DNA of 64,000 nt, taken from Desulfobacter postgatei 2ac9. Its GTDB lineage: Bacteria; Desulfobacterota; Desulfobacteria; Desulfobacterales; Desulfobacteraceae. Positions 26,097-41,575 of this stretch are shown here, piece after piece. The stretch lies in NCBI RefSeq assembly GCF_000233695.2, contig NZ_CM001488.1, positions 1,804,203-1,868,202 of the forward strand. Direction: 5' to 3'. Within the stretch, counting starts at the first letter, position 1; each line of letters starts with the position of its first letter. Made by a program: the position numbers and the translations under genes. The notes below the pieces were generated by a model. The model saw only the letters and a program-made list of their open reading frames with translations, was not told the DNA's origin and made no database searches.

Positions 26097-27266
26097 TTAT
26101 AAATTATGGAGATACTCCATATCCCTGGGCTGGGTATGTTTTGTTCCGATCATCACCACCTGGGTTTTGTTGGGATGATTCATAAAATAAAGCCTGCCTG
26201 TATATGCAAACAACACTTCAAAACAGCTGGCTTTGTGTTTTTTGCCAGAAAACACCTTCCGTTTCACAATTACCGATCCCGGGTCCCGGTCTAGCTGGTA
26301 AATTGTTTCTTCCGCTTTTATCTGCAACTCTTCGGTCAGGTTCATAAATCCGTCTAAGGCTTTTCTGCTCACGTCAACATTCTTGTACAGGGTTCCGAAA
26401 CGTTTGGATATAAAATCAAACTCGCTTCGTCCTGACTTTGCAGCGCTTTTTCTTTGTTCATATTTTTCAAGGCTTGATTTGAGTTCATTGATCTCAACGT
26501 CCCGTCGCTTCTTTAATTCAATATATGTGTTGAGCCGGTCTTCAAGGCTGACGATCTCGTTAAACATTTCATCTTCATTGATCTTTGCCTTTTTTTGTTC
26601 CGACTGGTATTTTTTATCTAATTGTTTTATATGCTTAAACAGTTCCACCCGTTCTCTGTTCAGTTCTTCCACCAGCTTTTCATGGCGTATTTCATCTTCT
26701 TTTAAATCCTGTTTCAAGTTGTGGATCAAGGCGTTTTTAGCGTCTCTTTCCTCTTTAGCTCTTTTGCTGCCCTGTCTATAAAACACAAAAAAGATTAAAA
26801 GAGACATACCGGAATAAAGGGCAAAGATAAAGTTTGCAAGAAATGATCCGTGATCCAGATGCAGAACGGTATTCACCTTGAGTCCGGAATTAAGTATTGC
26901 AAAGTTTTTATCTGCAACCGCCTGGGCATCGTAGTAGCCCAGTGAATCATCCTCAAATTCGTCGGTTCCCACGTAGATGGGATAAATAATTTTCCCCCGG
27001 CTGTCTGTCACCTGTACTTCCAGGTCAAATCGTGCCATCCGGATCAGGGTGTCCCGGTTTAAAATGGTCTGGATATTTTTTGCTATCCGGTCTTCAATGG
27101 GTACCGATCCGTTTAAAAGGTCACTGGAATTTCCGATAAACCCGTTTTCTATTTTTGAAAGATATTTTTTTTCCAGATAGTCCCGGCAGCCCGCAAGGGT
27201 AATTGTATACAAAATCGGGGTGATGACCAGGCAGAATACAACAACTTTAAAAGGAAAATATTTCAT
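26097..27266 (-). CDS. Inner-membrane coiled-coil protein, unknown family
   Basis: 389 residues, not recognised. Visible layout: an N-terminal membrane segment (VVVFCLVITPILYTITLAGC), a ~110-residue periplasmic segment with IQTILNRDTLIRMARFDLEV, a second membrane segment near 145-162 (FIFALYSGMSLLIFFVFYRQ), then a cytoplasmic coiled coil (~165-275) and a compact C-terminal domain (RKVFSGKKHKASCFEVLFAY, TKHTQPRDMEYL). The first segment ends in LAGC, but the following periplasmic part and second span argue against a simple lipoprotein. Stop and start of this gene and the ATPase are adjacent, so the two are probably partners. The 221 bases upstream (27267-27487) hold no convincing gene. Confidence 0.7.
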   Translation of the reverse strand: MKYFPFKVVVFCLVITPILYTITLAGCRDYLEKKYLSKIENGFIGNSSDLLNGSVPIEDRIAKNIQTILNRDTLIRMARFDLEVQVTDSRGKIIYPIYVGTDEFEDDSLGYYDAQAVADKNFAILNSGLKVNTVLHLDHGSFLANFIFALYSGMSLLIFFVFYRQGSKRAKEERDAKNALIHNLKQDLKEDEIRHEKLVEELNRERVELFKHIKQLDKKYQSEQKKAKINEDEMFNEIVSLEDRLNTYIELKKRRDVEINELKSSLEKYEQRKSAAKSGRSEFDFISKRFGTLYKNVDVSRKALDGFMNLTEELQIKAEETIYQLDRDPGSVIVKRKVFSGKKHKASCFEVLFAYTGRLYFMNHPNKTQVVMIGTKHTQPRDMEYLHNL

Positions 27267-27487: not shown

Positions 27488-30400
27488 TTATTCGACGGAT
27501 ATCTGTTGGGAAAAATGAAAAACCGCATTTTGTTCCCGGCAATGGGTCAGTAGTTGTTTAAAGCAGCAGTGTCTTGCCAGCAGGGCGTCTGAATCGGGAA
27601 TGACCGAGAAAAAGGCCCGGCTGCCCACGATGACCAATTTTTTTCTGGCCCGGGTCATGGCTACATTGAGTCGGTTTGGGCTGTTTAAAAACTCGCTGGT
27701 CAGATGGTCCGGGTCCGAGGCGGTGAGGCCGAACAGGATAATGTCCCGCTCGGCACCCTGGATCCGTTCCACTGTGTCCACAAGGGGGAGGGGGGCAGGG
27801 GAATGATGTCCAAGGATTTTTCCCAGCCGTTGGAGGATGGCGTTGTTCTGGGCCCGGTGGGGGGTGATGATAGCCATCCGGTCCGGGGGGAGGCCGTGGC
27901 CCAGGATCAGGCGCCCGGTCAGGGCGGCCATCAGATCCGCCTCTACATCCGATTGCTGGGCGCATCCCTGGTGATCCGTTAATACCAGCGTAACAGGTTG
28001 TTCCGGATTCAGGATGTCGCTGAGGATCGGGTCGTCCCCTGTTGGATTGTATTTTTCGTCCAGAGAATCCAGGTAGAGCCGTGCATTTTCCACCGAAGGG
28101 TCTGGGCAAAGCCGGTTGTGGTACCAGCTTTTGGATGGAAATGCGCAGAGCTCCTTGTTCATCCGGTAGGTGATGTCCAGGGTGACCTGGCACTCTTCAG
28201 GATACAGATCCCGCATATTAGAGAGAATAGAGCGGTTCAAGCGCAGTGCGTTTCCATTGTCATCAGGTTCATGGGAATCATAATTGCCCATGATAATGGG
28301 AGGAAGCTGGTGGACATCGCCCAGGAAGAGGAAATTTCCCCTGCCGTAGATGAGACTCAGCAGGGCCTGGGGAACTGGAACCTGGGAGGCTTCGTCGAAA
28401 ATGATCCAGTCCAGGGCAATGGGAAAGCCTTTATCCTTGCTGTTGAACAGGGAATAAAATCCGTATCCGGTGGCACCTAAAATCAGCCAGGACCGGTTTG
28501 GCAGATCCCGGGCGTCCTTTGTAAATTCCACCTCCATGGCGGTGGAATCGTCAAGGTCGGGTGTGCCGGATGCCGGCGTGTTTTCCTCCCCCCATTTCAC
28601 GCAGTGGCCCGGAAAATGCCCCGGCAGATATTGGTTGACCAGTTGGACCACTTTTTTTAATACCGTGTCAATGGCCTGGTGGGTCAGGGCGCTGATGCCG
28701 ATGCGCAGGGGCTTGCCGGCTTCATGGGCTTCAAGGATCAGGGCAATGATGATCCATCCCAGCAAATGGGTTTTTCCCGTGCCGGGCGGGCCCTGGATCA
28801 TGGCGGTACGGTATTGGAAGGGGAGCATTAAAGCCTGCTGCTGGGAGCGGTTGAGGCTGTGGTTTTCCCGGGCCAGCCATTTTTCCACCCAGGTCGCAGA
28901 TGCCGGTATCTGCCTTTCCAGGGCTGTCCCGGCCAGAAGCTGCTGGAGATGCAAATATCTGCTTTTTGAAAACAGGGTTTCAGATGCGTGGCGCAGTTTT
29001 TCCCGGTTCCAGTCATCCATATCTTCTTCAAGGGAGTAGTACAACGCTTTATTGAGATTTATCTTGCCGGACCGGGAAAGCAGCCCGATGTCACCGGCTT
29101 GGGTATCATATTCGACCATGACCACGGGAAAGCCGTTTTGCAGATCGGTCATGCCATGGGGCACCAGTTTAAGGAAATCCCCCTGGCGGAATTTGGCCGG
29201 CCGGGTCTGGTCTGTGGGTCTGAAGATATTGATGAAGCGCCCGGAGCTGTCCAGCCGGGTCTGGTGAAATTTCAGGTACCCCAGGGACCTGAACCGCAGC
29301 ATCCGTTCTTCCAGGGGCTGTTCCTGGAGCATCATGATATCTGCCTCTTTCAGGCGTTGTTCCTCCTGGATAAATGTTGTATACGGCCAGGCCTTTTTAT
29401 CTCCATGACTGCGGGACGGCCATTCCCTGATCCACCGGCTTTGCAGCCGGGACACGGCGGTCTGGTAAAGGTCTGCCATGAGCGCCAGGCAATTTTTTAC
29501 TTCGGCTGCCGCCTGGTTTATATCGCTGATGAATCCGCTGTTGTGGTGAAACAGGGTAGGTGGCGGTGCAGGCAGGGTCCTGCATTTGAAGATGCGGCCC
29601 AGGGTATATAGAGATGCTGTGCCCGGCGCGGGCATATAAAAATGAGCGGTCAGGACCTTTTGAATATCCGTCCAGGAGGAGGGTTGGGTTTGGTCGAGAA
29701 ATTCACAGGATGCTCTTTGTGCCTCTCCGAGCCATTGATTCAGAGCTGCGGGTGTCTGGGGGCCGAAATGGAAAATATGGGGGCCCTGGCCGACATGGAT
29801 GCTCTCTTCCCACAACCGCGCCAATTGCCTTAAAAAGGTTTGTCGGACTGCCTGGCGCTCCTGGTTGGTTTCCATGCGCCATACATGTGATTCAACAATT
29901 GTACTGCCGTTTGTATCCAGAACCTGCCATCCCAGGACCCGGGGCAGGTTGTCCAGGGGATCTTTTTCCAGGTGGATGAAAATTGCCCGGGAGAGGTTGG
30001 CCGGGAAGCGGTGGGTCTTTTTTTTGTGGCAGCAGATGCGGCCGGTTAAAAAGGCATCACACCATCCCAATAATTTTTTCTGCTGTCCCGGGGAGAGGCG
30101 AAGGGTCTCTTTTTTAAGGGCACCGGACAGCTGTTCAAGACTGGTGATCTCCATCTGCTGCAGGGCAGCCAGTTCGCCTCTGGTTAATTTGGGCAGGAAC
30201 CGTATCTCCTCATGGGCCAGGGCATGGTGGTAGCAGCCGGGGAATCCGGAACAGGCTGTGCAAAGGCTTTGAAGCCTGTAATCTGCATGGGGCGGCAGGC
30301 CGGAAAGCACATGGCCAAGGTGGTGCAGGAGCGTGGGCAGGGCCGCAAGGTATGGGATTAAATCAAATTCATGGATCTGATACGGTTCTGTTATCCGCAC

Positions 30401-33316
30401 GTCACCCAATGGTGGCGGGGTAATGATGAATCCTTTGCGGGAGACCCGGGCAGGCAGGTTGCAGCGGTCAATAATTTGTTCCAGTGCCAGGGCATAAAAG
30501 GCCACCTGCCATTTATGGTGGTATCCTGGTTTTTGGCTGCGTTTGATATCCCCGGCTTCAATGATTGCCTGTCCGTCTTTGCCCGGGGAAAGTTTCAGAA
30601 GATCCGGGATGCCGATACCTCTGATATGGGGGAATTGATGGATGGGCGTTTCTGTCTTGAGATAGCACTGAGACAGCCATATCGGCCGGGCGTTTTCCGG
30701 ATCACTGCCGGCCAGTTGCTGGATTGTTTGTTTTAGGAGCTTAACCGAAGGGAGCCACCGGGGCTGGCCGGTGGCTGGAGGTTCCGGCACAGCCAGGTGG
30801 TTCCCCTGTTGTTTAAGGGCAACCAGCACGGCCTGTTCATGTCGGACGCCCTGTTCCCGGACAAGGGCCATGACATCGTCCTCTTCTTGTACGGGATGGG
30901 CCAAGCCAAGGTATGAGAGACAGAATCTGCGATCACACTGGCCGTGGAAAATATAATCACTGACCATGGTGGCGGCCAGAGCGCGGGCGTCGGCCCGGTC
31001 TGGGTCCAGGCCGGGAGCCTGCCATACGGGGGATAAAAAGGGTGATGCTTTCGGCGTTTTTGCCGTCTGTTTTTCTTGGAACAAAAGCGCTGCTCCGGCT
31101 TCCATCTCAAAGTCTGGAGATTGCTCGACGGCCATGGGTAAAGGTTGGCACAGGTCTGCCATATCCCCGGAAACAATATCCGAACCCAGTTCAAGATACC
31201 GGGCAAAGGTATCGGCAACCCGTTGATCAAAGAGAAAATCCGCTACCTCTTCCACCATCTGTGGTCTGGGCAGGGTCCGCCAGAAAATACTCAGGGGAAT
31301 CAGACTGCGCAGCACTTTGAAATGAGCGGAGACCCAGGTGTGGAAGGCCTTTTTTTCAACGGGCAGGTTCAGTTTTTGAAAGTCAATCCAGCGGTCGCAT
31401 TCCACTCCGGTTTCGCTGGAGGCCACCTCCAGGTCCTCATCCTGGAAATGGTCCCGGATGGCCCATTCCAACACCAGATTGCCGGCGGACCCCAGAAAGG
31501 TGCAAAAGTGAAATCTTGCCCGGGTCCCCGGAACCACCTCAATCCCGTTGGCCAGCGTCACCCGGTTCTCGAAATATGAGCATTCCCGGCGGAATAATTT
31601 CTGGGTCCGGGCCATAAGGCCGCTGTCCCGGGGCAGGGTGCCGGTGCCCAGGATGCGCCCCATAGCCTGGGCCGTTTCCCAGGAGACATGTGCCCCCAGC
31701 CCTACCCATACCAGGGCCTTATCATCCTTTTTCATGGCCGGCCGGGCCGTGACCTTGCCGGGATCACCTTCATCAATCTTCAGGATTTTAAGGCGCCGGC
31801 CCGAAAGATAAACCCGATCCCCCACCTCCATCTGGTCAACAATGGATTGGGGGATGTCGGCAATGGATTCCATCTCCACTTCAAGGATGTATTCCTTTTC
31901 GCTTTCCGGAAAGTTTCCCCAGATTTTATACGCCATGAAATGGTTCCGGTACTGCCATCCGCCCCGGATCAGGCCGGGTCGCCCAGTCCGTTGATCGGTT
32001 CGTCTCAGCCAGCCCTTTTTTTCAAGGGCCTCGAAAATATCCGGCAGCAGGTGCTTGCGGTCCGGAAACAGGGCCTTCAGGGCGTTGAGGGAAATTTCTT
32101 TTTTTTCATATAGGCAGGAGATGACCTGCTGGCTCAACACACTGGGCAGGGCTTTGGGGGACGGGGCCTCGATTTTTCCCCGGCGGCCCAGCTCCAGCAG
32201 GGCAAGAAAGCGGATTACCTGGTTGCCCGCGGATTCCCCGGTGGTGATACCCCAGAAATTGATGGATTGCCCCCGGCGGTTTGCCCGGCCGATGCGCTGG
32301 AGAAAGGCCGACACCGAGCCCGGGGGCTCGTAAAGGAGTACCGCATCCACATCCCCCACATCAATGCCCAGCTCCAGGGTGGAGGTGGCAATGCACAGGG
32401 CATGGGGATTTTTCCGGAATCGGTCTTCCGCTTTTTTTCTTTCCTTTGCCTTGAGGTTGGAATAGTGCAGCTCGGTGACCTCCCTGAATACCCCGCTGCG
32501 CCGGACAATGCCGGAAAGCCGGTCGCAGGCCGACCGGCTGTTGCAGAACATAAGAATTTTTCGATACGCCCATTCCCGGTACAGATCATTGAGCAGGGCG
32601 GGCAGCTCGGTATCCTCTTTTCTCAGGTGGAGAAGCCGGGCCTGAATCTGCCGGTCCGCACCGGCCGAGATGGCCGTGGCGCCGGGCCTGAAATTGAAAA
32701 AATCCATGACCTCTGGGATGTCGGCAATGGTGGCGGACATGGCAATTTTCTGTATGGGCGTGCCGGTTCTTCGTTCCAGGCGGGTGAACAGATAGGCCAG
32801 GTGTCGGCCCCGGTACTGGTGGACCAGGGGATGGACTTCGTCGATGATCACGGTGCCTACCCGGGCCAGAAAGGCTTTGAGGCCGGCATTGCCGCTGCCC
32901 AGCATCACATCCAGGGATTCCGGGGTGGTGAACATGATGTCCGGTCGCTGGGTTCCCCCCTTTTTGATGTCCCCGGTGCGGATGGCCAGGATCAGGCTCA
33001 ACCGCTCGGTGATGATGGGCTCAAACCGGCGCATGAGGTCCTTGGCCAGGGCCCGGGTGGGAATAATGTATAAAACCCCGTGGGCACGACCAGAGGTGAT
33101 GACCCGTTCCAGGGCCGGGGCCAGGACGGCCTCGCTTTTGCCCGAGCCGGTGGCTGCCTGGACGATGAGGTCCCGGCCTTCAAGGATGGGGGCGATGGCC
33201 TCCGTCTGGACCGGCCGCAGGCCGACAAAGGTCCCGTAAAAAGGTCGGAAGGTGTTGGGGAGCCTTAAAAGGGGATCGGGCAGGAGGTCGGATGGCGGAT
33301 CAGTGACCTGCAGCAT
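27488..33316 (-). CDS. Giant SF2 helicase / Fe-S nuclease / SF1 helicase fusion
   Basis: 1942 residues. Domains in order: (i) Lhr-like DEAD/DEAH SF2 helicase, ~25-560, with VQAATGSGKS (54-61), VIIDEVH (157-162), KIAMSATIAD and the arginine-finger motif QRIGRANRRG (340-349); (ii) a Cas4/RecB-like PD-(D/E)XK nuclease, ~785-1030, with GQCDRRFCLSYLG, GIPDLL (Asp905), EAGDIK (Asp923, Lys925) and cysteines 794, 1019, 1022 and 1028 placed for a 4Fe-4S cluster; (iii) a YprB/TM0106-like RNase H segment, ~1110-1210, whose usual DxE entry reads FIHLEKDP; (iv) a Dna2/UPF1-like SF1 helicase, ~1485-1930, with QGPPGTGKTHL (1508-1518), IIFDEASQVP and GDVHQLPP, ending VAMTRARKKLVIVG. It follows the second ATPase by 5 bases. 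GC-rich throughout. Most likely the effector of a DNA-processing or defence operon. Confidence 0.9.
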   Translation of the reverse strand: MLQVTDPPSDLLPDPLLRLPNTFRPFYGTFVGLRPVQTEAIAPILEGRDLIVQAATGSGKSEAVLAPALERVITSGRAHGVLYIIPTRALAKDLMRRFEPIITERLSLILAIRTGDIKKGGTQRPDIMFTTPESLDVMLGSGNAGLKAFLARVGTVIIDEVHPLVHQYRGRHLAYLFTRLERRTGTPIQKIAMSATIADIPEVMDFFNFRPGATAISAGADRQIQARLLHLRKEDTELPALLNDLYREWAYRKILMFCNSRSACDRLSGIVRRSGVFREVTELHYSNLKAKERKKAEDRFRKNPHALCIATSTLELGIDVGDVDAVLLYEPPGSVSAFLQRIGRANRRGQSINFWGITTGESAGNQVIRFLALLELGRRGKIEAPSPKALPSVLSQQVISCLYEKKEISLNALKALFPDRKHLLPDIFEALEKKGWLRRTDQRTGRPGLIRGGWQYRNHFMAYKIWGNFPESEKEYILEVEMESIADIPQSIVDQMEVGDRVYLSGRRLKILKIDEGDPGKVTARPAMKKDDKALVWVGLGAHVSWETAQAMGRILGTGTLPRDSGLMARTQKLFRRECSYFENRVTLANGIEVVPGTRARFHFCTFLGSAGNLVLEWAIRDHFQDEDLEVASSETGVECDRWIDFQKLNLPVEKKAFHTWVSAHFKVLRSLIPLSIFWRTLPRPQMVEEVADFLFDQRVADTFARYLELGSDIVSGDMADLCQPLPMAVEQSPDFEMEAGAALLFQEKQTAKTPKASPFLSPVWQAPGLDPDRADARALAATMVSDYIFHGQCDRRFCLSYLGLAHPVQEEDDVMALVREQGVRHEQAVLVALKQQGNHLAVPEPPATGQPRWLPSVKLLKQTIQQLAGSDPENARPIWLSQCYLKTETPIHQFPHIRGIGIPDLLKLSPGKDGQAIIEAGDIKRSQKPGYHHKWQVAFYALALEQIIDRCNLPARVSRKGFIITPPPLGDVRITEPYQIHEFDLIPYLAALPTLLHHLGHVLSGLPPHADYRLQSLCTACSGFPGCYHHALAHEEIRFLPKLTRGELAALQQMEITSLEQLSGALKKETLRLSPGQQKKLLGWCDAFLTGRICCHKKKTHRFPANLSRAIFIHLEKDPLDNLPRVLGWQVLDTNGSTIVESHVWRMETNQERQAVRQTFLRQLARLWEESIHVGQGPHIFHFGPQTPAALNQWLGEAQRASCEFLDQTQPSSWTDIQKVLTAHFYMPAPGTASLYTLGRIFKCRTLPAPPPTLFHHNSGFISDINQAAAEVKNCLALMADLYQTAVSRLQSRWIREWPSRSHGDKKAWPYTTFIQEEQRLKEADIMMLQEQPLEERMLRFRSLGYLKFHQTRLDSSGRFINIFRPTDQTRPAKFRQGDFLKLVPHGMTDLQNGFPVVMVEYDTQAGDIGLLSRSGKINLNKALYYSLEEDMDDWNREKLRHASETLFSKSRYLHLQQLLAGTALERQIPASATWVEKWLARENHSLNRSQQQALMLPFQYRTAMIQGPPGTGKTHLLGWIIIALILEAHEAGKPLRIGISALTHQAIDTVLKKVVQLVNQYLPGHFPGHCVKWGEENTPASGTPDLDDSTAMEVEFTKDARDLPNRSWLILGATGYGFYSLFNSKDKGFPIALDWIIFDEASQVPVPQALLSLIYGRGNFLFLGDVHQLPPIIMGNYDSHEPDDNGNALRLNRSILSNMRDLYPEECQVTLDITYRMNKELCAFPSKSWYHNRLCPDPSVENARLYLDSLDEKYNPTGDDPILSDILNPEQPVTLVLTDHQGCAQQSDVEADLMAALTGRLILGHGLPPDRMAIITPHRAQNNAILQRLGKILGHHSPAPLPLVDTVERIQGAERDIILFGLTASDPDHLTSEFLNSPNRLNVAMTRARKKLVIVGSRAFFSVIPDSDALLARHCCFKQLLTHCREQNAVFHFSQQISVE

Positions 33317-33321
33317 GGGAA

Positions 33322-34599
33322 TCAGCAGGGCGTTTTTTGCTGTTCCAGATCCAGCTGGTTGACCAACAGCCTCAATTTCATCCTGGATTCGGCCCCTTTG
33401 TTTTGGGAGAGAATCTGCATCATTTCCCTGGATAGTTCAGTGGATCGTCCAGCAGCTTCCGGCTTCCACCCGTAGGCCCGTGCGTGGAGGATTTTAAGCT
33501 TGTCCGATAGCGTCTCCCATTCACCTGAAGACAAGTCCTGGAGAGAATGGATATTGATCCCTTTCCAGGCCTTGTGGTAATTGCGGGCAAAGCAGGGGAT
33601 GTCGTCGGTCGGCTGGTCGGTTTTCCGGCGTCCGCCGGGTCTGCGGGTCCGGTCCCAGGGTTCGGTTTCAACCAGGGTGAAAAAATCATGGGTAAAGGCA
33701 AATACCGGGAAAAATCCCTGTGCGGGGTTTTCCGGGCAGAAGATCTCATGGAGCAGATCATAGCTTTTGCTGCGGCTGGTGATGCGGGTCTGGCCGATGG
33801 ATTCCCCTTCGTCAAAGAGCAGGACCCATCCCCCGTATCCCATATCCTTGAACAACCGCGCCAGTCCTTTTATCATGCCCAGATATTCCTTGGGTTCATG
33901 GCAGGCCAGGGAGCCGCCTTTGTAAAAGTCCACTTCCCGGTAATGGAAGACCGCGCCAAGCTTCTGGGCCGGGATCTCTTTGCCCATGAGGGCATTTTTC
34001 AGTGCCCAGGAAAAGGATCGGGGCTGAAACCGGGCATGTTTTTTCAGTTTTTGTTTGCTGGCCGGAATATCCATGTTCTTGTTGGCCATGGCCGCCAGGA
34101 TGGCCCGGAATCGGTGGGGCATGTCGCCGGGAATAAAATCGTTGATGGATTTATCTTTGTTTTCCGGCCGGGCCAGCCATTGGGCGGCTGTTTCCTTCCA
34201 CAGCGTTGCCAGGCTGGTTTCCCCATTGGGAAAGACCATGGCCCCCATCAGGGCCCGGTAAACGGCTTTGAAGTCGTGGAAGGGTATCTGCCGCGGGTCC
34301 AGGTTAATATAGCTGACCACAAAATTATTTTCCAGGGCCCGCTGTTTTAAATAGGTGAGGCTGTGTGATTTGCCCTGGCCGTATGCGCCGCAGATGCAGA
34401 GGTGGTGAGAGGTTCCCTTGTTCAGGGCTGCAGCCCCCCGGTCAAAGAGCTGGTTGAGCTTTTCTTCCCCGGAGGTGAGCCATTGAACCCCCATGGGATC
34501 GAACAGGCCCTCCCTGAGGCGCTCCACGGCCCTGCGGAGATGGAAATTTTCAGTGCCGTTCATCTTCTCGTTAAATGCCTTTTCATCCATGGTGTTCAT
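33322..34599 (-). CDS. BrxC/BrxD-like P-loop ATPase 2 (DUF2791-type)
   Basis: 425 residues. Walker A CICGAYGQGKSHSLTYL (G71-S78), followed by the family-typical FVVSYINLDPRQIPFHDFK and VYRALMG, and Walker B GGWVLLFDEGESIGQ (Asp263, Glu264). This is the DUF2791/BrxC-BrxD type of AAA-like ATPase, known from BREX type 2 and other helicase-linked loci. It is paralogous to the next gene upstream in fold and motif order but not close in sequence. It begins 7 bases after that gene's stop and ends 5 bases before the giant helicase. It probably loads or gates the helicase-nuclease; that is inference. Confidence 0.85.
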   Translation of the reverse strand: MNTMDEKAFNEKMNGTENFHLRRAVERLREGLFDPMGVQWLTSGEEKLNQLFDRGAAALNKGTSHHLCICGAYGQGKSHSLTYLKQRALENNFVVSYINLDPRQIPFHDFKAVYRALMGAMVFPNGETSLATLWKETAAQWLARPENKDKSINDFIPGDMPHRFRAILAAMANKNMDIPASKQKLKKHARFQPRSFSWALKNALMGKEIPAQKLGAVFHYREVDFYKGGSLACHEPKEYLGMIKGLARLFKDMGYGGWVLLFDEGESIGQTRITSRSKSYDLLHEIFCPENPAQGFFPVFAFTHDFFTLVETEPWDRTRRPGGRRKTDQPTDDIPCFARNYHKAWKGINIHSLQDLSSGEWETLSDKLKILHARAYGWKPEAAGRSTELSREMMQILSQNKGAESRMKLRLLVNQLDLEQQKTPC

Positions 34600-34606
34600 C
34601 CCGATT

Positions 34607-35920
34607 TTAAGAATCCCAGGTGGGTTCCATCTGTTTCATCTTTTCCGCTTCCATCTCTTTCCGGGTCTCGACCATTTGCCGGGCCATGTCCATCTCCTCC
34701 GGTGACTGGCCCTGTTCGGCCAGGTCCAGAACACCGATGAGCTGTTTAATAAAAAGCCGCACCTCGCTGATGACCCCCATTTTTTTTTGATTGATGCAGA
34801 TATCTTCGATGACCTTGTCCGTGACCAATTCTTGGGGTGACCAGCGGTAGGCGATGCCGTGCAGAGAGAGCAGGCACCGGCCCAGGTCCACCAGTTCTTC
34901 GGTTTGAAGCGGTGTCTGGTGAATATCCACAAGGACGCCCCGGTAGTTGAGGCGTTTGGCGTCACCCATGGATGCCCCGATGGACCGCACCCGGCTCCAC
35001 AGGGCATCGTAGGATTTAAATCCTTTTTCCGATACCAGGACGTCCGGGATGATGGAAAAAAAGATGTGAAGGTATTGGGCGGTCTCGCTGTTGTCGATGA
35101 AAAGGCGGACATTTTCGTAGGCGGCATTGCGCACCGATGCACTCATGGCCACCACGGTCTCCATTTCGTCCATGAGCAGGATTAAGCCCTGGTGCCCGAA
35201 CCGCCGTAAAAACAGGATCAGGGAATTCATCAGCTGCCGGGCATTGGTCTTGGTCAGGTATTCATAAACCTGGAAAGGCTTGAGTTCGCGTTTGGTCACT
35301 TTGCCGCCGTCAAACCAGTGCATGAGAATTTCCCGGTCTGCCTTTCGGGTCTCCTCATTCTCCCCTTCTTCCATGGGGGCAAACCGGTTGCTCACCAGGG
35401 CGGCCAGTGCATTGGCAAAGTTGATATCCATGTCCGGGATATCCCTGAGTTCTTCGGCCAGGGCCGTACATTTTTCTGTGGCGGCGTCTGCCTTGGCGCC
35501 TTGGAATTCCGGTGACAGTGCGTCCAGCCAGGCGGTCAGCAGATTCCGGATGCCCACGCCGTCAAAATTGCCCTGGAGCTGCCGGACAATGGACTGGTAA
35601 ACGGTTTCAAATTTGTGGATGGGCACATCCCGGGTCAGGACCACAAAAGAGACGGCAAATCCTTTTTCCATGGCCAGATGCCGGACCACGGACATGAAAT
35701 GGGTTTTACCGTCTCCGTAATCCCCGCTGATGAACCGCACCTTGGCCCCGCCCTGAGCAATGTAATTTTCCAGGTCGTCTTCGATATAAGAGAGCCATTT
35801 CTGCCGACCCACGGTAAATACCGGCACATATTCCACAGGCACACTGCCCTTGCGCAGCTCTTCGATAATGGATCTGGCCTGGAAGGGTTCGAGTTCTTTG
35901 AGGGCGTCCAATGATATCAT
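34607..35920 (-). CDS. BrxC/BrxD-like P-loop ATPase 1 (DUF2791-type)
   Basis: 437 residues. Walker A VRFISGDYGDGKTHFMSVVR (G66-T73), then AVSFVVLTRDVPIHKFETVY, and Walker B GLILLMDEMETV (Asp251, Glu252). The stretch between, with FQVYEYLTKTNARQLMNSL, and the C-terminal helical part are typical of DUF2791 ATP-binding proteins. An AAAGGATC RBS precedes the ATG. It lies 14 bases downstream of the 278-residue gene. Two divergent members side by side suggest a hetero-oligomeric ATPase. Confidence 0.85.
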   Translation of the reverse strand: MISLDALKELEPFQARSIIEELRKGSVPVEYVPVFTVGRQKWLSYIEDDLENYIAQGGAKVRFISGDYGDGKTHFMSVVRHLAMEKGFAVSFVVLTRDVPIHKFETVYQSIVRQLQGNFDGVGIRNLLTAWLDALSPEFQGAKADAATEKCTALAEELRDIPDMDINFANALAALVSNRFAPMEEGENEETRKADREILMHWFDGGKVTKRELKPFQVYEYLTKTNARQLMNSLILFLRRFGHQGLILLMDEMETVVAMSASVRNAAYENVRLFIDNSETAQYLHIFFSIIPDVLVSEKGFKSYDALWSRVRSIGASMGDAKRLNYRGVLVDIHQTPLQTEELVDLGRCLLSLHGIAYRWSPQELVTDKVIEDICINQKKMGVISEVRLFIKQLIGVLDLAEQGQSPEEMDMARQMVETRKEMEAEKMKQMEPTWDS

Positions 35921-35934
35921 GGCCGGAAGATCCT

Positions 35935-36771
35935 TTAAGGTTTATGAAAAGAGATGGCGGTGATCTGGCGCAGTTCCCCCTGGGTGTCCAGGAGCCACAG
36001 GGCCTTGTTCCGACCCGGGGTGAGTTGAAGTTCGTACCCTTGGGACGTGCCGCCGATGCCCGCCTGGTAGTACCGCCACAGGTCCACGGAAAATTGGTCC
36101 AGGCTGTAGCCTTTGAATTTTCCCTTGTCCATATCCTGGAAAAAGGTTTTGGACTGCATATCGATCACATAGGCCAGGTAAAATTGTTGCATGGGAACGG
36201 GACGGCCGGCGGACAGATCTTCTTTTTCAAGGAGTTTCAGGTAGACCCTGCACAGGGAATCAATGAATTCCCGCGGATCATAGGGCGTATCATACAATTG
36301 CTTCTTGAGCCGGACCACCATGGCCATGATCCGCCTGGGATCAATGGATTTGAGTACCTTTTTGTTGATTTTCGTGGCGCGGCTGGCAAAATCAATCTCC
36401 CCGGTGATGCCCTTTAAGACCGTGAATCTGGGAAAATTCATCTCCATTTCAAGACCGGCTTCTTCGCATTGCCGGGTCAGGTCTTCGATAAGATCCATGC
36501 GGTACTGCTCAACCTTTTCATCGGCATAGGCTCCCAGGGTTTCAAATACCGGGGCGCAGCTTTTCAACGTGTCGTCCTCGCATATATCGCCGGCCAGTTT
36601 GCTTTTAAGCAGTTCATCCAGTTGGAGAAAGTCATCTCTTTCCGCACACCGGATGCACTGTTTGATCAACTCGGCTTTTTTCTGTTTCTGGTTCAGGTCC
36701 CGCTGAAAGGGCTGGAGGATCTTTTTTAAATCCTTTTGAGCATCCTCAAGAAATTCATTGGTTTCCGGCAT
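35935..36771 (-). CDS. Unknown protein, first gene of the helicase/ATPase operon
   Basis: 278 residues, family not recognised. N-terminal half is helical and charged (LKKILQPFQRDLNQKQKKAE, then CIRCAERDDFLQLDELLKSK); the middle contains SRATKINKKVLKSIDPRRIM; the C-terminal half has YLAYVIDMQSKTFFQDMDKG and a small terminal domain ending TPGRNKALWLLDTQGELRQI. No signal, membrane segment or catalytic motif was found. An excellent RBS (GAGGAGT, 5 bases) marks the start, and the three downstream genes follow within 14, 7 and 5 bases, so it belongs to the same transcription unit. It may be a recognition or adaptor subunit, but nothing in the sequence proves that. Confidence 0.75.
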   Translation of the reverse strand: MPETNEFLEDAQKDLKKILQPFQRDLNQKQKKAELIKQCIRCAERDDFLQLDELLKSKLAGDICEDDTLKSCAPVFETLGAYADEKVEQYRMDLIEDLTRQCEEAGLEMEMNFPRFTVLKGITGEIDFASRATKINKKVLKSIDPRRIMAMVVRLKKQLYDTPYDPREFIDSLCRVYLKLLEKEDLSAGRPVPMQQFYLAYVIDMQSKTFFQDMDKGKFKGYSLDQFSVDLWRYYQAGIGGTSQGYELQLTPGRNKALWLLDTQGELRQITAISFHKP

Positions 36772-36883
36772 TTGACTCCTCGTTTGTTTTTAAATTTTAA
36801 TTGGCCTATTTTCTACACTGGTGCCGAAAAAACTTCAATGGTTAAAAGCCTGTTCAAAAATTAATGACATCATTTCTGATTAA

Positions 36884-36958
36884 ACCATGAAGAACATGAA
36901 GGACATGAAGATTGCTTTTTTTGTATATATTCTTCATGCTCTTCATGTTCTTCATGGT
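36884..36958. repeat. Long inverted repeat of ATGAAG-type units
   Basis: Left arm ACCATGAAGAACATGAAG + GACATGAAG and right arm CTTCATGCTCTTCATG + TTCTTCATGGT, ~27 bases each around a 21-base AT-rich loop. It lies between the divergent helicase operon and the tesA-like gene. A degenerate relative is at 60531-60599. Confidence 0.85.
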
Positions 36959-36999
36959 AAAATAAAAAATTTAGTGCTTAATTTAATTTGGAAGTAAGT

Positions 37000-41032: not shown

Positions 41033-41575
41033 ATGACGACGGCATGTGTAAGAAAAATATTGCCCAATGTTAAGGATTTTAAAACGTTCTGGAAAAAACA
41101 AGGTCCTTTTCGGTACGCACTGACAAGCAAGGAGTATCCACCTGTGCTGCTGGAACCCGAAGAGTGGATATTTGGCCAGGATAAACAGGCGATTATTAAA
41201 GAGCTGATGCAGTTCTCCCGTATGAAGATGTTCTTTGCACCGGCGCCGTTCAACCCGGACAATAAAAACATCCTGCGTCCTGATGATATCTGTGCCTGGA
41301 AGATTGTCCATTTTCCGGAACCCTGGAATGCCATGATATGCGACGGGTTCCTGCCCGAAGGCCAGCTTACCCGGGCTGTGGTGGATGAGTGCGTCAGGCT
41401 GGGCCTTGCCGAGGATGAATCAGGGATTGAACAGGCTTTTTTCAGTCTGCTGGAAAGGCAGCTGGATTGCATGGGCTATGTATGGCTGCCGCCCCGGGGG
41501 AACGCACAAACCGCCTTTATTCATGAATACCTGGAGGCGTGGCTCAAGGATGAGGAAGAGGCCGGGCTATTGTAG
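41033..41575 (+). CDS. Hypothetical protein, 180 residues
   Basis: Not recognised. Soluble, no signal or membrane segment. Conserved-looking patches include PPVLLEPEEWIFGQDKQAII, FSRMKMFFAPAPFNPDNKN and WKIVHFPEPWNAMICDGFLP. Begins MTTACVRKILPNV with AAGGA about 8 bases upstream, the AAGG being the end of the hairpin element. Codon pattern is similar to its neighbours, and the frame is long and clean, so I regard it as real. Confidence 0.65.
   Translation: MTTACVRKILPNVKDFKTFWKKQGPFRYALTSKEYPPVLLEPEEWIFGQDKQAIIKELMQFSRMKMFFAPAPFNPDNKNILRPDDICAWKIVHFPEPWNAMICDGFLPEGQLTRAVVDECVRLGLAEDESGIEQAFFSLLERQLDCMGYVWLPPRGNAQTAFIHEYLEAWLKDEEEAGLL

Follow-up and report, generated by a model that had tools for sequence, protein, structure and literature searches.

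A window of 64,000 nucleotides, the whole stretch of DNA analyzed here, comes from the sulfate-reducing bacterium Desulfobacter postgatei 2ac9 (contig NZ_CM001488.1, positions 1,804,203 to 1,868,202 of the forward strand), whose genome is a single contig of 3.97 Mb. On the reverse strand of the window lie four open reading frames (ORFs) in the order A, B1, B2 and C, with intergenic gaps of 14, 7 and 5 bases (Table 1). We favor, with moderate confidence, the reading that this operon is a defense system against foreign DNA built on a BrxD-BrxHI core, on a branch of its own beside bacteriophage exclusion (BREX) type 2 and Shango. The operon is not a chance arrangement: other genomes show the same gene order, and purifying selection acts on each of the four genes (ratio of nonsynonymous to synonymous substitution rates, dN/dS, of 0.10 to 0.27 between the window's species and Desulfobacter latus). 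A preliminary description of this DNA, made from its letters alone, had proposed a four-gene unit read in one direction behind a strong ribosome-binding site (RBS), and the ORF coordinates and the GAGGAG motif agree with it.

Table 1. Features of the operon, in window positions
Feature	Position	Strand	Description
Gene A	35935..36771	-	278 aa; no known family
Gene B1	34607..35920	-	437 aa; BrxD-type AAA+ ATPase
Gene B2	33322..34599	-	425 aa; second BrxD-type AAA+ ATPase, more divergent
Gene C	27488..33316	-	1942 aa; superfamily 2 (SF2) helicase, putative iron-sulfur (Fe-S) nuclease, degenerate RNase-H-like part, beta barrel, superfamily 1 (SF1) helicase
Shine-Dalgarno GAGGAG	36776..36781	-	four bases ahead of A's ATG at 36771; strong RBS
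Lhr/BrxHI-like SF2 helicase region	31202..33277	-	C residues about 14-705; PADLOC BrxHI, solved relative 5v9x
Cas4/MGME1/RecB-like PD-(D/E)XK nuclease	30212..31009	-	C residues about 770-1035; conserved residues and fold matches, placing inferred
RNase-H/DEDD-exonuclease-like part	29627..30064	-	C residues about 1085-1230; placing inferred from predicted strands
Dna2/Upf1-like SF1 helicase	27527..28879	-	C residues about 1480-1930; AAA_12 4e-29, solved DNA2

The four genes recur together. A scan for gene A in one genome per species, covering 84,980 species, returned 46 loci; B1 follows A in all 44 that have sequence left, and B2 follows B1 in 39 of 41 (the exceptions are L108 and L114). In 30 of 33 loci, all or part of C is found no more than 1.6 kb from A-B1-B2, downstream in 28 and upstream in 2; the upstream-C cases L118 and L120, where the sequence ends too soon after B2, are not counted. 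Seventeen of the 30 adjacent C genes are one full-length frame and one (L125) is a single frame running off its contig, while L090 and L119 have two frames and contig ends truncate another seven (among them L112, whose frames are broken as well). Where C is not adjacent, the genome encodes it elsewhere in each of the three cases, as two full copies (L091), as two pieces at contig ends (L109) or as a single frame of about 2,300 residues that matches piecewise (L092). Within the phylum, a B1 search of 395 genomes gave nine with E below 1e-100, including D. postgatei itself, and in each of the remaining eight the four genes are found together, apart from breaks at contig ends (L043 without A, L036 with C cut). 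An A-like match occurs in 17 of the 395, several of them weak at 34 to 58 bits (G004, G056, G188, G192 and G392). By context, eight of these are the long form found in the window and four (G222, G182, G004 and G056) are a compact form, in which A-B1-B2 is accompanied by a helicase of about 700 residues, without the nuclease and the SF1 helicase. A-B1-B2 was seen without a helicase in G156, G192 and G392, the last being cut by its contig; no C relative was found in the G156 genome at E 1e-20. The lone A-like matches in G033 and G188, which have neither B1 nor B2 beside them, may be unrelated to the operon.

Named carriers of A include D. latus (92%) and Desulfobacter vibrioformis (89%). Beyond Desulfobacterota, A occurs in bins assigned to Latescibacterota, Gemmatimonadota and SAR324, whose rows nest inside a mostly Desulfobacterota tree of B1. 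We do not claim transfer between phyla: label changes are required on the B1 tree, but a number of its "Myxococcota" labels derive from generic record titles, and the bins may hold stray contigs. Among 72,556 plasmid records, two match A (three A queries, E 1e-3).

B1 and B2 both carry PF10923 in Pfam (5e-61 and 1e-24), and for both the PADLOC ranking places BrxD first and SngB second. Their motifs are those of ATPases, with Walker A GDYGDGKTH (66-74) and Walker B D251 E252 in B1, and GAYGQGKSH (71-79) and D263 E264 in B2. The Walker A lysine and the Walker B aspartate are invariant in the alignments (14 rows for B1, 15 for B2), and in B1 the acidic partner of that aspartate, E252, is retained in 13 of the 14 rows. 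Neither protein reaches the cut-off of 350 for the BrxD equivalog NF033438 (158.8 for B1, 76.7 for B2). In the ATPase tree, long-form B1 proteins form one clade (100/99), as do long-form B2 proteins (100/100), and SngB joins BrxD (94/91); compact B1 and compact B2 are not single clades, with both ATPases of L049 and both of L052 falling on the B1 side. Tandem pairs of BrxD-like ATPases were also seen in L044, L045, L047 and L048 (family f48) and in L046 (family f78), with no A or C match alongside, and the pairs of L045, L047 and L048, those in the tree, group with the compact form of L148. Four libraries offer no credible family for gene A: Pfam, PADLOC and PHROG give none, and the best NCBIfam match has an E of 0.65. 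The AlphaFold2 model of A is confident (mean predicted local distance difference test score, pLDDT, 89.5) and predicts a long N-terminal helical hairpin, beta strands, and a helix bundle with C-terminal strands. Against solved structures the fold's best match reaches only E 1.1, and a profile of A found no meaningful match among PDB sequences; winged-helix-sized domains of Cdt1 and ORC1 are among its top fold rows, a weak lead toward a winged-helix-like character.

Protein C is the largest component. Pfam recognizes a DEAD helicase at its N terminus and AAA_11/AAA_12 at its C terminus. The first 700 or so residues match the PADLOC BrxHI model at 1.5e-88 (296 bits over residues 30-705; a true BrxHI protein reaches 929 and 848 with the two models) and SngC at 7e-70, and the closest solved relative of this region is the ATP-dependent helicase 5v9x (3e-32), which we take to be Lhr. 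Residues 1486-1924 match DNA2 (5eax, 2e-27), the best solved SF1 relative. Pfam alone does not reveal the nuclease (Cas4 at E 0.12, with no notable match in the middle of C), and a profile of the middle gave no meaningful match to PDB sequences. A structural model of residues 700-1480 (mean pLDDT 69, predicted template modeling score 0.50) has one fold match at E up to 0.001, to Dna2 (4.9e-4, probability 0.30). Next come SSO0001, presumably a Cas4, together with MGME1 and AdnA (probability 0.97 to 1.00) and Ighmbp2/Upf1, at E 1e-3 to 3e-2; the DEDD/RNase-H-type exonucleases ERI3 and oligoribonuclease match at about 8e-3, alongside other RNase-H-fold rows. Because the fold-match output carries no aligned ranges, the placing of these domains along C follows predicted strands. 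The counts of conserved residues cover distinct full-length C proteins, with split and truncated genes left out. Set A7 omits L042 (masked letters), and set A8 omits L102 and L125. In the residue counts D905-D923-K925-Q937 of the nuclease is intact in 18 of 22 proteins, and the putative Fe-S cysteines C794, C1019, C1022 and C1028 are kept in all 22. In the RNase-H-like part no DxE motif is kept in the alignment. The preliminary description had read C as helicase, nuclease and helicase in one 1942-residue chain, with the nuclease now resting on conserved residues and a moderate fold match; its two divergent DUF2791-type ATPases and its 278-residue protein of no recognized family are likewise what the libraries returned.

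The operon shares with BREX type 2 a BrxD-type ATPase beside an Lhr-type SF2 helicase. It differs in having no PglZ, PglX, BrxC or PglW, in its two ATPases rather than one, in gene A, and in a C that carries a nuclease and a second helicase. The available portion of a 2026 survey of BREX and related systems classes BrxD as an ORC/Cdc6-type AAA+ ATPase and possible loader of BrxHI, places it in BREX type 2 beside an SF2 helicase whose C-terminal domain is of the Lhr type, describes its role for BrxHI there as uncharacterized, and in that portion does not include the four-gene set (PMC12839542). Shango is, in the accessible part of its account, a three-gene TerB-ATPase-helicase system with a measured, mostly modest anti-phage effect (PMC10250203). 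The operon has in common with it a BrxD-like ATPase and a BrxHI-like helicase in a small gene set, and departs from it by the lack of a TerB-type SngA, the twin ATPases, the fusion of the helicase to a nuclease and an SF1 helicase, and the separate branch. A true Shango (SngA 2e-96, SngB 9e-187, SngC 1e-271) lies about 190 kb away at C1 2,030,680-2,036,487 (L034 7681-13488), near a type II DNA methyltransferase gene, so the two coexist in one genome. Like Dna2, C has a four-cysteine PD-(D/E)XK nuclease upstream of an SF1 helicase. RecBCD logic combines two motors and one nuclease, as C does in its likeness to RecBCD-AddAB. Unlike Dna2 and RecBCD-AddAB, C has as its first motor an Lhr-type SF2 helicase on the same chain and AAA+ genes as partners, and the operon lacks RecBCD partners. 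The libraries and literature searched yielded no named system made up of these parts, most subscription journals lying outside that coverage, which agrees with the earlier proposal of an undescribed set.

The compact relatives place the core of the operon in other settings. On a plasmid of Desulfomonile tiedjei, A-B1-B2 is followed by a 701-aa helicase, and AbiE genes lie about 3.3 kb off. On a conjugative plasmid of the cyanobacterium Aulosira laxa (L128 97-15170), a compact A-B1-B2-helicase set begins 172 bp after a BREX type 2 operon (PglZ 1057 bits, BrxD 552, BrxHI 929, Eco57I-type methylase), and its A matches the C-terminal part of the window's A (28% over 138 residues, 3e-10). One of these two plasmids has a ParA gene 2 kb away. 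A cytosine-5 DNA methylase lies about 3.5 kb from the helicase of another compact relative, L151. The defense-type neighbors of compact relatives include BREX, Mrr, DNA methylase and AbiE, although these counts lack a background control and do not measure enrichment. In the helicase tree, compact and long forms (14 rows) are split from SngC and BrxHI (5 rows) at 100/100, and the long-form helicases form one clade; the tree is rooted at the midpoint and has some long branches. The occurrence of relatives on plasmids and in other bacteria suggests that anti-virus machinery of the BREX/Shango type has a third branch, not described before. Two contigs show further arrangements. In L150 (1-4398), an A-like gene precedes three tandem BrxD-like ORFs and the contig end cuts the series; in L152 (993-7000; G192), an SNF2 helicase-Mrr restriction fusion comes 1.4 kb from A-B1-B2, beyond one 295-residue ORF, and could be a neighbor or an effector swapped in for the Lhr-type helicase.

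Within Desulfobacter, A is present in 9 of 19 genomes, and 3 of the 10 without it have a completeness of at most 90%. The operon and one small ORF lie, in G398 and G409, between homologues of the window genes at 26097-27266 and 41033-41575, whereas in G399, G410 and G402 these homologues are only 0.94 to 1.3 kb apart. The emptied sites of G399 and G410 (L075 and L076) keep 36 bp of the 3' end of C (83%) and that of G402 (L077) keeps 376 bp from inside C (79%); no A or B match was found at any of the three. This fits deletion of the operon at this site, at least twice. Since C fragments remain at the empty sites, recent insertion is not supported as the cause of presence and absence there. Nor is a housekeeping set conserved in all relatives supported, given the absence of A from 10 of the 19 genomes and the remnants of C. 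G407 carries the operon at a different genome location.

The defense reading draws on the nearest relatives of B1 and B2 (BrxD and SngB) and of the N terminus of C (BrxHI and SngC), on the patchy distribution and on the defense neighbors of the compact form, and these suggest an anti-phage role. SF2 helicases run 3'-5' and SF1B helicases 5'-3', by family; the polarities given here for C, like the Fe-S assignment, follow such family-level knowledge. In this model B1 and B2 would assemble into a mixed AAA+ loader of the ORC/Cdc6 type, with A as an adaptor binding either the loader or DNA, and the three together would place C on invading DNA. C could then unwind the DNA with two motors that share a chain and run in opposite directions (SF2 3'-5', SF1B 5'-3'), and its putative Fe-S nuclease would cut a strand, in the manner of a one-chain RecBCD or of Dna2. 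The two BrxD-type ATPases and the compact form without a nuclease make a core of loader (B1-B2-A) and helicase the simplest model, with the Dna2-like half probably added in the long form as a cutting module. As a tentative extension, the operon may represent a third BrxD-BrxHI family, which also exists in compact form, and whose long form captured a complete Dna2-like engine, giving a RecBCD-like machine under the control of an AAA+ loader: a single polypeptide with two motors of opposite polarity, served by a hetero-oligomer of two ORC-like loaders and an adaptor. A system cut down to an adaptor, two loaders and a helicase that may or may not be fused to a nuclease sets the core of loader and helicase apart from the cutting part. 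If the reading is right, C would be an unusual two-motor nuclease on one chain, the twin ATPases would be an ORC-like loader used in immunity, and the arrangement would bear on the relation of BrxD to BrxHI in BREX type 2 and of SngB to SngC in Shango. To our knowledge there is no answer as to what SngB does for SngC.

Several observations weigh against a defense system of this kind. C is short or broken inside the contig in 3 of the 30 adjacent cases (L099, L116 and L126), to which masking or assembly may contribute. The nuclease residues are altered in four of the 22 C proteins, L037 and L035 (D905), L042 (K925 and Q937) and L125 (K925), so in some lineages cutting may have been replaced or may not be needed. 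Searches of viral contigs and phages returned no long-form A. PADLOC matches are few and scattered among 98 long-form flanking proteins (122 selected), in which the commonest Pfam domains are PIN and methyltransferase (5 proteins each), and PemK (2) and HicB (2) also occur; the linkage of the long form to defense genes is thus weak, as judged without a background control. The operon genes have a G+C content of 0.51 to 0.57, against a window mean of 0.467, but nearby ABC-transporter genes are also high in G+C at third codon positions. Synonymous divergence (dS) between the window's species and D. latus is 0.30 to 0.35 for the operon genes and 0.25 to 0.40 for three flanking genes, so descent within this Desulfobacter subclade looks vertical. 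The preliminary description had set out vertical descent, conservation in all relatives and no defense linkage as the marks of a housekeeping role: descent at one region and the weak long-form linkage do conform, whereas three genus members have lost the operon and its distribution beyond them is patchy. Some compact relatives do lie among defense genes. The ATPases may, as the preliminary description also proposed, feed DNA to the effector. The self-contained set of that description stands in that A-B1-B2-C recur together, and gives way where the compact form has no nuclease or SF1 helicase and where three genomes hold C apart.

The vertical inheritance and the weak linkage of the long form to defense genes would also suit a host module for DNA repair or replication rescue, optional and beneficial, in which the twin loaders put C on damaged or stalled DNA. 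Dna2 and Lhr, which the two helicases of C resemble, are repair-type families, and the twin-ATPase pairs without A or a BrxHI-like helicase recur across two families, in five genomes altogether, as could be the case for a conserved host function. We nevertheless hold this unlikely, in view of the patchy presence and the C remnants at three emptied sites, the compact copies on plasmids and behind BREX, and the defense components that are the nearest library relatives of B1, B2 and the first helicase of C. The plasmid copies, one of them close to a ParA gene, raise instead a module for processing mobile-element or plasmid DNA, serving competition between elements or plasmid maintenance rather than anti-phage defense, and toxin-antitoxin domains in several flanks would fit it; yet plasmid matches to A are so few, the window's A has no phage match, and six window neighbors scanned with Pfam include no integrase, which makes such a role quite improbable.

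Membership in Shango or in a reduced BREX type 2 system, despite significant matches to SngB, SngC, BrxD and BrxHI, is very improbable. We reject Shango because B1 scores 116 bits with SngB and C 235 with SngC, where the Shango of this genome reaches 620 and 902, because gene A has no Pfam, PADLOC or PHROG family that would make it an SngA, and because the helicases split at 100/100. BREX type 2 is rejected on the sub-threshold BrxD equivalog scores and on the window scan: neither the operon proteins nor the 51 other window ORFs include SngA, PglZ, a BREX methyltransferase, BrxC or PglW, and at a PADLOC threshold of 1e-10 those 51 ORFs match seven families, none of them a core BREX part. Kinship with BREX type 2 without PglZ or a methyltransferase, as first described, is therefore borne out in the window, but Shango, another close relative, had been missed. 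The defense reading with a branch of its own remains the one that we prefer.

The surroundings of the operon in the window are of another kind. Its neighbors include a GDSL lipase, an FtsX/MacB permease and an OmpA-domain protein, which makes the earlier placement between envelope genes a fair one. Between the upstream side of the operon and the lipase gene, at window positions 36881-36960, lies an inverted repeat with ATGAAGAACATGAAG-type units.

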